From assembly GCA_003600225.1 (NCBI GenBank), contig QZFT01000023.1:186001-250000 (forward strand): 64,000 nt of DNA, written 5' to 3'. The translations under genes and the position numbers were made by a program. Origin of the DNA: Pseudonocardiaceae bacterium YIM PH 21723. GTDB taxonomy: Bacteria; Actinomycetota; Actinomycetes; Mycobacteriales; Pseudonocardiaceae. The notes below the pieces were generated by a model. The model saw nothing but the letters and a program-made list of their open reading frames with translations. It did not search any database and had not been told where the DNA came from. Positions 32,238-37,029 of this stretch are shown here, in pieces. Numbering within the stretch: the stretch's first letter is position 1; every line of letters begins with the position of its first letter.

Positions 32238-33086
32238 ATGTTCTTCGACTACAGCCCGATCACCGAGCGCCCACCGATCAGCTGGCCGGGCGGCGCCCGG
32301 GTGGCCGTCTACGTGGGCCTGAACATCGAGCATTTCCTCATCGACAAGCCGTCGGGCGCCATCCATCCCGGCACCTCCCACCTGGTGCCCGACCCGCTCA
32401 ACCACGGCTGGCGGGACTACGGGGTCCGGGTGGGTATCTGGCGCACCATCGAGAGCCTGGACCGGCACGGGTTCCGGGCCAGTGCCCTGATCAACTCGAT
32501 GGTCCCGGAACAGTATCCGCAGATCATCCGCGCGGGCCTCGACCGGAACTGGGCCTGGCTGGCACACGGCCGGACCAACTCCGAGTACCACAGCGGCTTC
32601 GAACGGGAGCGGGAACGCGAGGTGCTCACCGAGATCGTGGACACCATCGCCGCCGCCACCGGGACCAGGCCGCAGGGCTGGCTGGGCCCCGGGCTGACCG
32701 AGACGTTCCACACCCCGGAACTGCTGGCCGAGCTGGGACTGAGCTACGTGCTGGACTGGACGAACGACGACCAGCCCTACCGGCTCAACGTCCCGGGCAT
32801 GCTGAGCGTCCCGTACACGGTGGAGCTCAACGACCTGGTCATCTTCAGCAGGGTGCACACCGGTCCGGAGTACCTGCAGATGGTGATCGACCAGTACGAG
32901 CAGCTGCGCGCCGACTCCATCCACAGTGGACGCGTGATGTCGATTCCACTGCACCCCTTCGTGATCGGCCAGCCGTTCCGGGCGAAGTACCTGGACCAGG
33001 CGCTGGAATTCCTGGCCGCGCAACCGGATGCCTGGATCACCACCAGCGACGAGATCGCCGCCCACTACACGAAGATCACGAGTTGA
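32238..33086 (+). CDS. polysaccharide deacetylase-fold hydrolase, PuuE/allantoinase-like
   Basis: A 282-residue cytoplasmic NodB-fold protein (no signal peptide). Segments WPGGARVAVYVGLNIEHF, FRASALINSMVP, WAWLAHGRTNSEYHSG and GTRPQGWLGPGLTETFHTPEL match the PuuE type, which cleaves C-N bonds such as in allantoin rather than acetylated sugars. Beside an amine oxidoreductase it may serve nitrogen-compound catabolism (inference). Followed 39 bp later by the caspase-EccC gene with its own good ribosome site. Confidence 0.82.
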   Translation: MFFDYSPITERPPISWPGGARVAVYVGLNIEHFLIDKPSGAIHPGTSHLVPDPLNHGWRDYGVRVGIWRTIESLDRHGFRASALINSMVPEQYPQIIRAGLDRNWAWLAHGRTNSEYHSGFEREREREVLTEIVDTIAAATGTRPQGWLGPGLTETFHTPELLAELGLSYVLDWTNDDQPYRLNVPGMLSVPYTVELNDLVIFSRVHTGPEYLQMVIDQYEQLRADSIHSGRVMSIPLHPFVIGQPFRAKYLDQALEFLAAQPDAWITTSDEIAAHYTKITS

Positions 33087-33125: not shown

Positions 33126-36100
33126 ATGGCAGGACAACGCCGTGCACTGATCATCGGCTACTCACGTGGTCCCGAGGATCTGCGACAGGTCACCGACGAC
33201 GCCAACCGGCTCGCCCTGCTGCTGCGACATCGGCGCATCGGCCGCTTCGCCTCGGCGAACGTCCTGCTCCAGCCGGACAGGGCCACCGCCGAGCGCGCCC
33301 TGGAGCGCCTGCTCGAGGGCTGCCAGGCCGAAGACACGGTGCTGGTCCACGTGATCGGCGAGCTGCTCGCCACCCGCAGGCAGAACGACCGGTTCTACCT
33401 GCGGGTGGCGGACACGGCCCTCGACCAGCCACAGTCCACCGCCCTCCCGGACGTGCGGTTGCAGGAGATGCTGGACCGCTGCCAGGCGAGCCGGAAGGCG
33501 GTCTTCCTGGACTGTGTGCTGCAGGACCTGGACCCGCCGGTGGGCATGGCGCCCGTCACCGCGGTGCCGGACCTCGGTGACGCCACCTTCCTGACCGCGG
33601 CGACCGGCCGGTTCAGTCCCGCTCAGGCTCCGGTGACCGCGTACGACCATCCGTTCACCGCGGCGCTGGCCGACGTGCTCCGGTCGGGCAGCAACACGCC
33701 GACCACGGCGGCGGATCTGGTGCGGCGGGCGGCCGGCCAGGTCTACGAGCAACCAGTGGGTTCGGCGCACACCAGCGGCCTGTTCACCATCGCCGAGGCC
33801 CGCCAGCCCCTGCCGCCGCAGACCTGGCGACGGCCGACCGTGCTGGAGCTGACCGGCGGTCCGTGGACCGCGGACCGGATCGGCCGCAAGCCCGGCTACC
33901 GGGTCCCGATCGGCGTGAACCTCATCGGCCAGCCGGTCATGCTGGACCTCACTCCGGTGTTCCGGCACGGCGACGGCCCGCACGGCCTGATCATCGACCG
34001 CACCGGCGATCGCTGGGTGGGCGTGCTGCGCGACATCATCGGCGGGCTGATGGCGACGCACTCGCCGGAGGACCTGGAGTTCCTGTTCCTGCACGCCGGA
34101 GCGCCCACTACCTTCATGAACGTGGCCCAGCTGCCACACGGCATCGCGACGATCGACGCCACCGACCAGCCCGCCCGGGTGGCCGATGAGCTGTGGGCCG
34201 AGCTGCGCCGACGGCAACGGATGCTGGAACAGGCCGGCGCGAAACACGTCGACGACTACCGGCAGCGCCGGGCCGGGGACCCCGGACTCCCGGCCATCCC
34301 CGAGCTGGTCGTGGTGCTGGTGCAGGCGGATCGGTACGCGGGTGGTCCCGAATTGCGGGAGACCCTGTTCACCCTGTGCCGGATGGGGCGTTCGGTCAAC
34401 GTGCACCTGCTGTTCGAGATGGCCGAGCCGGACGCGGTTCCCGGACTGGACGCCTACTTCGCCTTCCGGATCGAGGTCGACCGGGACCAGGCCCGGCTGA
34501 CCACGCAGAACCAGGGCACGACCAGCTATCTGCCGCTCGGCATGGTCCCGTTCCAGCAGTGGGACGAAATGATCGTCGCGATGGCCGAGGCCGGCTGGCT
34601 CACCCCCATCACGCGCACCGAACCCCCGCGCAGGCCCATCCCCCTCGGCACGACCGAGGACGGCGGGCGGATCGAGGTGGACTTCGCCGACGACCAGCAT
34701 CTGTCGATCTTCGGAGACCGGGAGTCCGGCAAGACGACCCTGCTGCGAACGGTGATCAAGGGCATCACCGGGCAGTACACCCCGGAGCAGGCGATGTTCC
34801 TGGTACTCGACCCGCACCACTCGCTGTCCGGCCTGGTCGACGAGGAGCACCTGCTCGGTCACGCGGTCACCACGAGGTCGATGGACCACATGCTGGGTGA
34901 CGTCATCACGTCGCTGCGCAAACGCGTGCCGGGGTCACACATCACCCAGCGGCAGAGCCGCAACCAGGCCTGGTGGACGGGGCCGGACGTGTTCGTCGTC
35001 GTCGACGACTACGAGCAGCTGATGAACGGCTTCCAGCAGCAACTGGCGCCGCTGGGCGAGATGCTCGGCCTGGCCGGCAGCATCGGCCTGCACCTGATCG
35101 CCGCGTGTTCCGCGGAGGCCGCGTACAAGCAGCTGTACGACCGGGTGCTCGGTGCGGCGCGGGAGCGCTCCCTCGCGATCGTGCTGCCCGGTATGCCCGG
35201 CGGTGGCAGGCTACCCGATTCGATCGAGGTCTCCGAGGGCCCGGCCGGTCGGGCCGACCTGGTGCGTCCCGGCGGTGGCGAACCGGTTCGCTTCCAGGCA
35301 CTGGACACCCCTGACCCGTCCGAACCGGCGGCTGCCGGGGCGACGACCGCCACCACTCCCCCGCTGAGCCTGGAGCATCACCTGCTGGCCTTCGGGACCA
35401 GCCTGTCCGAGCACGCCGCGCTGCTGCGCGCGGCAATCAGCGGCATTACCCAGCGGTACACCGCGGCGGAAGCGCTCATCCTGGTGCTCGACGGCGAGAA
35501 CACCCTGGGAGGCGCCGTCCCGGAGGACTATCTGCTGGCGTATCACCGCAGCGATGACGAGCTCGAAACGACGCTGTCGGACGTGGCCAAGTCAATGGAA
35601 CACCGCGTGCGCACCGCGTGGCGCGGTCCGAAACTGTTCATCATCGTCAACGGCCTGCCTAACTATCGGCGGCTGGTGCAGTGGGAGCCGTTCCTGCCGC
35701 ACGCGCGGCACATCGGCCTGCACCTGATCGTCACCGCGCGCCCGGAGGCGTTCCACAGTGCGCGGCACGCCCAATTGCTGGGCGATCTCAGGCAGCGTCG
35801 TATCCCGACGCTGCTGCAGGCCGGCTACCCGGTGCACTACCGGCCGAGCAACATGAAACCGGACATACCGGGGGAACCCGCCCTGGTGCTGGAGCAGGGT
35901 CGCCAGGCCAGGATCGTGGACCTCGGCTTCCCGGATACCGGGCGGCGCATCGCCATCGGCACCGGCGAGGACGGTGGGCCCGTGGAGGTCGATTTCAGCA
36001 TCCACCAGCACCTGATGGCCTTCGGTGCGGCGAAGACGGGCCGGTCCACGTTGCTGCGCACCGTCATGAAGGGCATCACCGAGCGGTACACCGCCCAGGA

Positions 36101-36632
36101 AGCCCTGATCGTCGTGATCGACTATTCGGGGTCCCTGAGGGACGTGGTCGACGGAGAACACCTGCTGGCCCATGTCGGCGAGCGGGACGACCTGCCCTCG
36201 ATTCTGCCGGACGTGATCACGAGTATGACCAAGCGGCTGGCCGGTCCATGGACGGGTCCGGAGCTGTTCCTGGTGATCGATGACCTCCACGCTGTACGGG
36301 AGCCGGAGTCCCCCATGGCCCAGTGGCCCTTGGAACCACTGCGCTCGGTCATCCAGCGGGCAGCGGAGGTCGGCCTGCATCTGGTGACCACCGATCGGAC
36401 CGCCACGGGTGGCAAGCACATCGAACACTGCACCGTGCTGTCCGCCGTGAAGCGGGCGAGCAGCCCGGCGGTGTACCTGCCGTGTGGCGAGAACGAGGGC
36501 CGGTGGCAGGACGTCCCGGAGTTCTCCGGCGAGCCGGGTCAGGCCGTGCTGTCCCGCTGTGTCGGCGTCTCGACCCCGGTCCGGCTGCACGACACCCCGC
36601 CCGCCGGATCGGCGGACGGGGTGACCGGGTGA
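33126..36632 (+). CDS. pseudo-caspase fused to an EccC-type FtsK/SpoIIIE ATPase with triplicated last domain
   Basis: A 1168-residue soluble protein. Residues 5-225 form a caspase (C14)-like domain (ALIIGYSRGP, DDANRLALLL, KAVFLDC). The catalytic His segment is HVIGE (75-79) instead of SGHG, and DCC becomes DCV (129-131), so the dyad looks lost. Residues 255-490 match EccC ATPase domain 1 but with a broken P-loop (DRTGDRWV, 291-298). Three similar EccC domain-3-like units follow, each with GITxxYT: P-loop GDRESGKT (530-537, intact, Walker B VVVDD 624-628), GTSLSEHA (757-764, dead) and GAAKTGRS (967-974, Lys to Arg). No TM or ESX partner is present. Start ATG follows GGGGGTAGG. Confidence 0.88.
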   Translation: MAGQRRALIIGYSRGPEDLRQVTDDANRLALLLRHRRIGRFASANVLLQPDRATAERALERLLEGCQAEDTVLVHVIGELLATRRQNDRFYLRVADTALDQPQSTALPDVRLQEMLDRCQASRKAVFLDCVLQDLDPPVGMAPVTAVPDLGDATFLTAATGRFSPAQAPVTAYDHPFTAALADVLRSGSNTPTTAADLVRRAAGQVYEQPVGSAHTSGLFTIAEARQPLPPQTWRRPTVLELTGGPWTADRIGRKPGYRVPIGVNLIGQPVMLDLTPVFRHGDGPHGLIIDRTGDRWVGVLRDIIGGLMATHSPEDLEFLFLHAGAPTTFMNVAQLPHGIATIDATDQPARVADELWAELRRRQRMLEQAGAKHVDDYRQRRAGDPGLPAIPELVVVLVQADRYAGGPELRETLFTLCRMGRSVNVHLLFEMAEPDAVPGLDAYFAFRIEVDRDQARLTTQNQGTTSYLPLGMVPFQQWDEMIVAMAEAGWLTPITRTEPPRRPIPLGTTEDGGRIEVDFADDQHLSIFGDRESGKTTLLRTVIKGITGQYTPEQAMFLVLDPHHSLSGLVDEEHLLGHAVTTRSMDHMLGDVITSLRKRVPGSHITQRQSRNQAWWTGPDVFVVVDDYEQLMNGFQQQLAPLGEMLGLAGSIGLHLIAACSAEAAYKQLYDRVLGAARERSLAIVLPGMPGGGRLPDSIEVSEGPAGRADLVRPGGGEPVRFQALDTPDPSEPAAAGATTATTPPLSLEHHLLAFGTSLSEHAALLRAAISGITQRYTAAEALILVLDGENTLGGAVPEDYLLAYHRSDDELETTLSDVAKSMEHRVRTAWRGPKLFIIVNGLPNYRRLVQWEPFLPHARHIGLHLIVTARPEAFHSARHAQLLGDLRQRRIPTLLQAGYPVHYRPSNMKPDIPGEPALVLEQGRQARIVDLGFPDTGRRIAIGTGEDGGPVEVDFSIHQHLMAFGAAKTGRSTLLRTVMKGITERYTAQEALIVVIDYSGSLRDVVDGEHLLAHVGERDDLPSILPDVITSMTKRLAGPWTGPELFLVIDDLHAVREPESPMAQWPLEPLRSVIQRAAEVGLHLVTTDRTATGGKHIEHCTVLSAVKRASSPAVYLPCGENEGRWQDVPEFSGEPGQAVLSRCVGVSTPVRLHDTPPAGSADGVTG

Positions 36633-36636
36633 TCGA

Positions 36637-36918
36637 TCAGCAGTCGACGAACTTCCGGTACTTCCAGCCGTAGCCCCAGCTCTTCTCCTCACCGCGGTTG
36701 AGCGACTTGCACGCGCCGGCGGTTCCGTCGGTGTACTCCGCCCGGATCCGGATGGTGTAGTCGCAATAGGAGTTCCTGGCCCAGACATAGAGCTGGTTGT
36801 TCGACCGGGCCGTGCATTTCTCCGCATTGCTCTGCACACCGGCAGGCTCGGCAGTGGCCACGCTCGTTCCCAGAAAACCGAGCGCGACGACAATTCCCAG
36901 AATGGTCTTCCGATACAT
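36637..36918 (-). CDS. secreted tendamistat-like (alpha-amylase inhibitor family) protein
   Basis: A 93-residue precursor with signal peptide MYRKTILGIVVALGFLGTSVATA. The mature part has four Cys spaced 16, 17 and 22 residues, close to tendamistat's 15, 17, 27. The middle block C-DYTIRIRAEYTDGTAGA-C parallels tendamistat's second disulfide connection. The inhibitory WRY triplet is not conserved (the loop reads YVWARNSY), so it may not inhibit amylase. GGAGAAGGA precedes ATG 36918. It ends five bases from the convergent caspase-EccC stop. Confidence 0.7.
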   Translation of the reverse strand: MYRKTILGIVVALGFLGTSVATAEPAGVQSNAEKCTARSNNQLYVWARNSYCDYTIRIRAEYTDGTAGACKSLNRGEEKSWGYGWKYRKFVDC

Positions 36919-37029
36919 GTTCCTTCTCCCCTGTAGGACGAGGAGACCAGCGGACCACGACCCCCATCCCGCCGGAAGGCGTCGCCCTGTCCAGGCATGC
37001 GCCGGACAGTCCGGCGACACGCCTACCAG

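Follow-up and report, generated by a model that had tools for sequence, protein, structure and literature searches.

A caspase-like domain that appears to have lost both of its catalytic residues may be a protease retained for another role, an enzyme with a displaced active site or a gene in decay. Such a domain lies at the head of an ORF of 1168 aa in the soil-type actinobacterium Pseudonocardiaceae bacterium YIM PH 21723, within a stretch of 64,000 nucleotides (contig QZFT01000023.1, positions 186,001 to 250,000) referred to here as the window, and raises the question of which of these it is and what the protein attached to it might do. Dead bacterial caspases are known, as are EACC1 systems with many C-terminal parts. 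In a literature search by title and start of abstract, with subscription papers and supplements outside its scope, we found no caspase-EccC fusion, no co-loss with EACC1 and no caspase gene in a proteasome locus.

The caspase-like domain

The features of the gene are listed in Table 1. Over its whole length the frame has a codon-position GC content of 0.72/0.48/0.89, and the coding composition is uniform in every module. Residues 5-195 matched the NCBIfam model NF047832 (caspase, EACC1-associated) with 81.5 bits against a cut-off of 140, and no match to the Pfam C14 model was found in the protein. When the domain was aligned with 35 other actinobacterial caspase domains of the same family, the GHG and DCC columns fell on Glu79 and Val131, a placement that was the same in a second alignment (A3) and in a 93-row set. 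An AlphaFold model of residues 1-240, built on a 50-row alignment, reached a mean pLDDT of 79.5 and a pTM of 0.83, and its best solved neighbours were the MALT1 paracaspases (VIA-align Z 20.2, rmsd 2.9, 191 aligned residues; Foldseek E 2.5e-9). The alignment feeding the model consisted largely of true caspases, which favours a caspase fold; the sequence match is independent of the model. Modelled strands 71-83 and 123-134 pass through both dyad positions, and the loop at 163-172 was poorly predicted. A PDB sequence search with the first caspase profile gave chance matches only, and the same search with a deeper profile led to MALT1. As a first-pass annotation had proposed, the domain has lost both residues of the catalytic His-Cys dyad and, judging by model and sequence, kept its fold, and residues 1-225 would be a pseudo-orthocaspase by the criterion of a p20 domain without the dyad.

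Table 1. Features of the fusion gene and of the gene upstream, in window positions
Feature	Position	Strand	Basis
Whole gene, 1168 aa: pseudo-caspase head and four EccC-like ATPase modules	33126-36632	+	ORF, profile and module matches
Caspase-like domain, residues 1-225, N-terminus of the ORF	33126-33800	+	NF047832, E 5.6e-23, sub-threshold; AlphaFold model and MALT1 match
Glu79 codon, catalytic His column	33360-33362	+	Alignments
Cys130 codon, non-catalytic first Cys of LDCC	33513-33515	+	Alignments
Val131 codon, catalytic Cys column	33516-33518	+	Alignments
E1, EccC ATPase1-like module, P-loop lost (DRTGDRWVG)	33894-34478	+	Best match E1, 91 bits; Walker table; aligns to ATPase1 of T. curvata EccC (4nh0)
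E3a, EccC ATPase3-like module, P-loop and Walker B intact (GDRESGKTT, VVVDDY)	34617-35288	+	Module match, structure match, Walker table
E3b, second ATPase3-like copy, P-loop and Walker B lost (GTSLSEHAA, IIVNGL)	35367-35912	+	Module match, Walker table
E3c, third ATPase3-like copy, P-loop GAAKTGRST (Lys to Arg), Walker B LVIDDL	35940-36500	+	Module match, Walker table
Allantoinase PuuE/polysaccharide-deacetylase-like gene, in the usual position of EACC1	32238-33086	+	TIGR03212, 109 bits, sub-threshold; Polysacc_deac_1, sub-threshold

It had also been suggested that the active site might have shifted by one residue, to Cys130, and that the conservation of this residue should be checked. The column was occupied by Cys in 35 of the 36 rows of the first alignment and in 50 of 50 rows of another (A5); it is conserved, but as the ordinary first Cys of DCC in active relatives, the residue that precedes the nucleophile in active enzymes. 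Since Cys130 is shared with active relatives and no His replaces His79, a shifted active site finds no support. A local frameshift at the Cys site was considered and rejected because neither of the alternative reading frames contains a DCC-x-SG motif there; the His is gone too.

The EccC-like ATPase modules

The remainder of the protein, absent from the first-pass description, is an EccC-type multi-ATPase. The NCBIfam equivalog TIGR03925 (EccCb) spans it with 421.5 bits against a cut-off of 346.55, and its structure matches were to the EccC crystal structures 4nh0, 4n1a and 6j19, the best solved matches being ATPase1 and ATPase3 of T. curvata EccC and ATPase3 of EccCb1. When the four modules of L050, an intact relative, served as queries, the protein reads caspase-E1-E3-E3-E3. 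Intact caspase fusions read caspase-E0-E1-E2-E3, in which E0 resembles E2; the other dead forms read caspase-E1-E2-E3, with one split gene that shows only E1-E2, and the genuine EccC of the same genome (contig C68) reads E1-E2-E3. The Walker motifs of the window protein are broken in E1 and in the second E3, intact in the first E3 and altered from Lys to Arg in the third. Broken E1 P-loops were found in 5/8 dead proteins versus 5/43 intact ones. No transmembrane-like stretch was detected in the window protein, the maximum mean hydropathy being 1.51.

The gene starts 39 bp after the PuuE-like gene and also follows an FAD oxidoreductase gene. No protease genes lie near it, no EACC1 gene is found directly upstream, where the PuuE-like gene stands instead, and no type VII secretion (T7SS) family was detected among the 13 neighbours scanned by Pfam or NCBIfam. 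Directly downstream and convergent with the fusion gene lies a small predicted secreted protein (window 36640-37020, minus strand), of which a 104-residue part had no match in a Pfam scan.

Relatives of the fusion gene

We surveyed 51 caspase-EccC fusions, of which 43 have an intact dyad and 8 a broken one. At the family level (390 genomes, seven candidates per genome scored) the 38 top matches to a profile of the dead form, with E 6.3e-42 or better, were exactly the 38 fusions analysed; 30 of these carry His-Cys and eight do not. Order and class surveys (397 and 394 genomes) yielded 13 and 17 fetched loci, and 13 more intact fusions came from those 30. A further 29 fusions, retrieved by patterns that require an intact dyad, overlap the survey set and stand outside the 43/8 count. 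The alignment check put forward with the first-pass annotation, on whether the loss is lineage-wide, thus came out negative, with only 8/51 fusions broken. The broken dyads read Glu-Val in the window protein, His-Ser in L042, its paralog in the same genome, and Arg-Ala (twice), Cys-Ala (twice), Cys-Ser and Arg-Gly in one other genus.

Loss of the dyad was accompanied by two further losses. An EACC1-like gene lies directly upstream of 43/43 intact fusions versus 0/8 broken ones (Fisher p 1.6e-9, kinship ignored); nine of these loci had served as seeds for the EACC1 profile. When 30 of the upstream genes were scanned with the EACC1 model of Pfam itself, 20 were confirmed, and the assignment of the others rests on the seeded profile. 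Module E0 was assigned in 42/43 intact fusions versus 0/8 broken ones; the one intact fusion with no assigned E0 shows a gap of 263 residues at that place. In the window genome, PF19953 matched only on contigs C68 and C24, adjoining neither the window gene nor L042. The relatives with an intact dyad thus belong to two-gene systems of the EACC1-caspase type, in which the fusion has the architecture caspase-E0-E1-E2-E3.

No close ortholog of the window gene was found, either in the 390-genome family search or in a scan of genome contigs with the whole window protein, in which none of 13 pattern matches was confirmed. Two other genes of the same genome were seen. One, on contig C19 (L042:7395-10214), is a second EACC1-less caspase-EccC gene, with three intact ATPase P-loops. 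The other, on contig C68 (L043:7044-11843), is an EACC1-type caspase, itself intact, joined to nSTAND1 and WD40 repeats; the match to EACC1 is divided between this frame and a second one, which points either to overlapping EACC1 and caspase genes or to a disturbed frame.

The Pup-proteasome locus

ATP-dependent protease genes adjoin 11 of the 51 survey fusions, four being neighbours of a divergent Lon gene and seven lying inside a Pup-proteasome locus, and none was found beside 91 non-fusion caspase loci; because the protease-neighbour loci are interrelated and the flanks vary in length, no probability is attached to these counts. The Lon neighbours belong to intact EACC1-caspase-EccC systems (L046, L047, L051 and L142), and Pfam confirms Lon for L046.

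In the genus of Kibdelosporangium banguiense (g27, eight genomes) the slot after prcA holds an intact system in one species, a dead form in six and nothing in one. In K. banguiense (G150) an intact pair of EACC1 and caspase-E0-E1-E2-E3 genes sits between prcA and pafA. In the six, a dead form without E0 and without EACC1 follows prcA, with pafA beyond it in five and the contig end in the sixth (L132). In the four loci that were measured (L057, L059, L132 and L133) the gap from prcA to the dead gene is 54-83 bp, which is too short for an EACC1 gene. The eighth genome (G130) has no fusion there; between prcA and pafA stands a PAP2/DAGK-like gene. For L057, Pfam confirmed the Pup ligase (twice), Pup and two proteasome subunits. 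In a caspase tree made by a quick method with the dyad columns masked, the intact domain of K. banguiense was sister to the six dead ones (SH-aLRT 99). Given the same-slot series and this sister placement, conversion in place is the simplest reading of these dead forms.

The caspase domains of the dead forms in this genus also appear to be under purifying selection, as would suit a role in binding or regulation. For the dead domain the two closest pairs gave dN 0.020/dS 0.164 and dN 0.089/dS 0.369 (simple counting, GC-rich genes), a dN/dS no worse than that of the rest of the protein in these pairs. The first-pass suggestion that a maintained dead protease points to a regulatory or binding role gains from this as far as the dead domains of that one other genus are concerned; for the window gene itself, which has no close ortholog to compare, it stays where it was. 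One of the six dead genes (L133:7193-10233, genome G151) is split into two overlapping frames and may be a pseudogene or an assembly error. The Pup-proteasome locus of the window genome holds no caspase-EccC fusion. A GQYL-like ending is the motif of a proteasome-docking C-terminus; none was seen, by eye, among the C-termini inspected, and docking of this kind seems unlikely.

Origins of the dead forms

A single origin of all dead forms was rejected, the one-clade hypothesis having an AU p of 0.010 on quick trees, in a 33-row subset with 7/8 dead rows from which 18 fusions, one of them dead, were left out. The window protein and L042 as one clade gave an AU p of 0.055, not rejected at 0.05. 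The branch of the window row is very long in both the caspase tree and the E1 tree (2.07 and 2.7 substitutions per site), so that its placement is tentative, and the E1 tree does not resolve it. Loss of the dyad appears to have arisen in more than one lineage.

Discussion

We propose, with a probability of about 0.5, that the window gene is a pseudo-caspase/EccC fusion derived from an EACC1 two-gene system and is now a non-proteolytic binding or regulatory protein. Its ancestor would have consisted of a membrane EACC1 protein and an active caspase fused to EccC-type ATPases in the order E0-E1-E2-E3, and the loss of EACC1 would have been accompanied by that of E0 and of the His-Cys dyad. Because the three were lost together, EACC1, E0 and proteolysis may act as one unit, the co-loss being what was observed and the coupling what it suggests. 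What is left would be a soluble, non-cutting protein whose caspase fold might offer a surface for binding peptides or proteins, and whose ATPase3-type modules might serve as an ATP-responsive part for recognition and assembly. In EccC, according to the portion of PMC6954902 cited here, ATPase3 modules recognise substrate signal sequences and bind ATP, that of EccCb1 recognising the EsxB signal, with a pocket that varies between systems. Since the dyad is lost, the ATPase1 motor module is dead too and ATPase3 is triplicated, the protein would be expected neither to cut nor to translocate. Most likely it would bind, in an ATP-dependent manner, the proteins that active caspase-EccC or EccC machines target or partner with, perhaps as a decoy, an inhibitor or an adaptor; its ATPase3 copies retain one intact and one near-intact nucleotide site.

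The main rival to this proposal is that a partner-less EACC1 system is drifting and that its remnant, though still an open reading frame, makes a protein without a selected function. The very long branches of the window row and the failure to find an ortholog also fit relaxed constraint, and the broken motifs of ATPase1 and E3b and the split state of a gene of the same type elsewhere (L133) point the same way; nevertheless 1168 codons are open with a coding composition uniform across modules, E3a retains strict Walker motifs, the caspase domain of dead relatives in another genus evolves under purifying selection and the window genome has two such genes, and we regard decay as rather unlikely. 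An enzyme that is still active through another catalytic pair, such as Cys130 and His75, is highly improbable: although the protein has Cys130 and also a His four positions ahead of the missing one, active relatives share Cys130 without exception and use the residue after it as their nucleophile, and His75 lies in a modelled strand and has a counterpart in only some of the other dead forms.

It is also possible, but unlikely, that the protein is a receptor for ESX signal peptides, in which three ATPase3-like pockets would capture WXG100-type substrates and either supply them to the genuine EccC of contig C68 or keep them from it. The presence of that EccC and the match of E3a-c to the EsxB-binding ATPase3 module would suit such a role, but the pocket residues are described in the cited portion of PMC6954902 as hypervariable, so that binding cannot be read from sequence, and neither a T7SS gene among the annotated neighbours scanned nor a transmembrane-like stretch was found. 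A wider extension of the binding-protein reading, which we consider doubtful, would make the caspase-EccC class ATP-driven protein-quality-control machines, placed beside Lon or in the Pup-proteasome operon, and the dead EACC1-free forms, the window gene being the most remodelled, non-cutting recognition rings that hand substrates over to proteases or secretion motors or withhold them.

Several known systems resemble parts of the window protein. EACC1 systems, predicted to be immune or cell-death devices, have up to 50 different C-terminal parts, and EccC and FtsK are unnamed in the text of the section that describes them (Kaur et al. 2020, PMC7159879). As in these two-gene conflict systems, the window protein joins an N-terminal caspase-family domain to a variable C-terminal effector, and its intact relatives have EACC1 upstream; the window gene itself, however, has neither EACC1 nearby nor the dyad. 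Pseudo-orthocaspases likewise have a bacterial caspase fold without the His-Cys dyad and are read as pseudo-enzymes. In the part of the survey of Klemencic et al. (2019, PMC6426788) used here, 862 pseudo-forms were counted, with 3/636 in Actinobacteria, and most had Tyr-Ser and came from Alphaproteobacteria and Cyanobacteria, whereas the window protein has Glu-Val on an EccC fusion. Dominant-negative or peptide-binding roles were proposed, in the part of Kaur et al. 2020 (PMC7159879) that treats vWA-MoxR systems, for their inactive caspase effectors, which are dead as well but fused to vWA rather than to EccC modules. The window protein shares with EccC and EccCb of type VII secretion the ATPase1- and ATPase3-type FtsK/SpoIIIE modules and an EccCb model match above cut-off, but it has a caspase head in place of the membrane part, has lost the ATPase1 P-loop, lacks ATPase2 and carries ATPase3 three times.

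In the relatives, loss of the protease accompanies loss of the membrane partner gene and of one ATPase module, which suggests that the window protein was once a protease of cell defence and has become a binding protein that does not cut. The occurrence of intact, dead and empty versions in one slot, together with three features that vanish jointly in more than one lineage, amounts to a natural experiment on which parts of caspase systems belong together. The dead caspase-EccC proteins also make a concrete set for testing whether a dead caspase can act as a regulator in the way that cFLIP does for caspase-8; the cited parts of PMC6426788 and PMC8195603 mention cFLIP.

Degenerate caspases of another kind were met in class-level genomes (L204-L210 and L214). 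In these the His is replaced by Tyr and the Cys is kept, the frames are 1323-1390 aa long and not fused to EccC, and no EACC1-like gene was found upstream; L204, the one member of this Tyr-Cys group scanned with Pfam, is fused to AAA_11/AAA_12 helicase-like domains.
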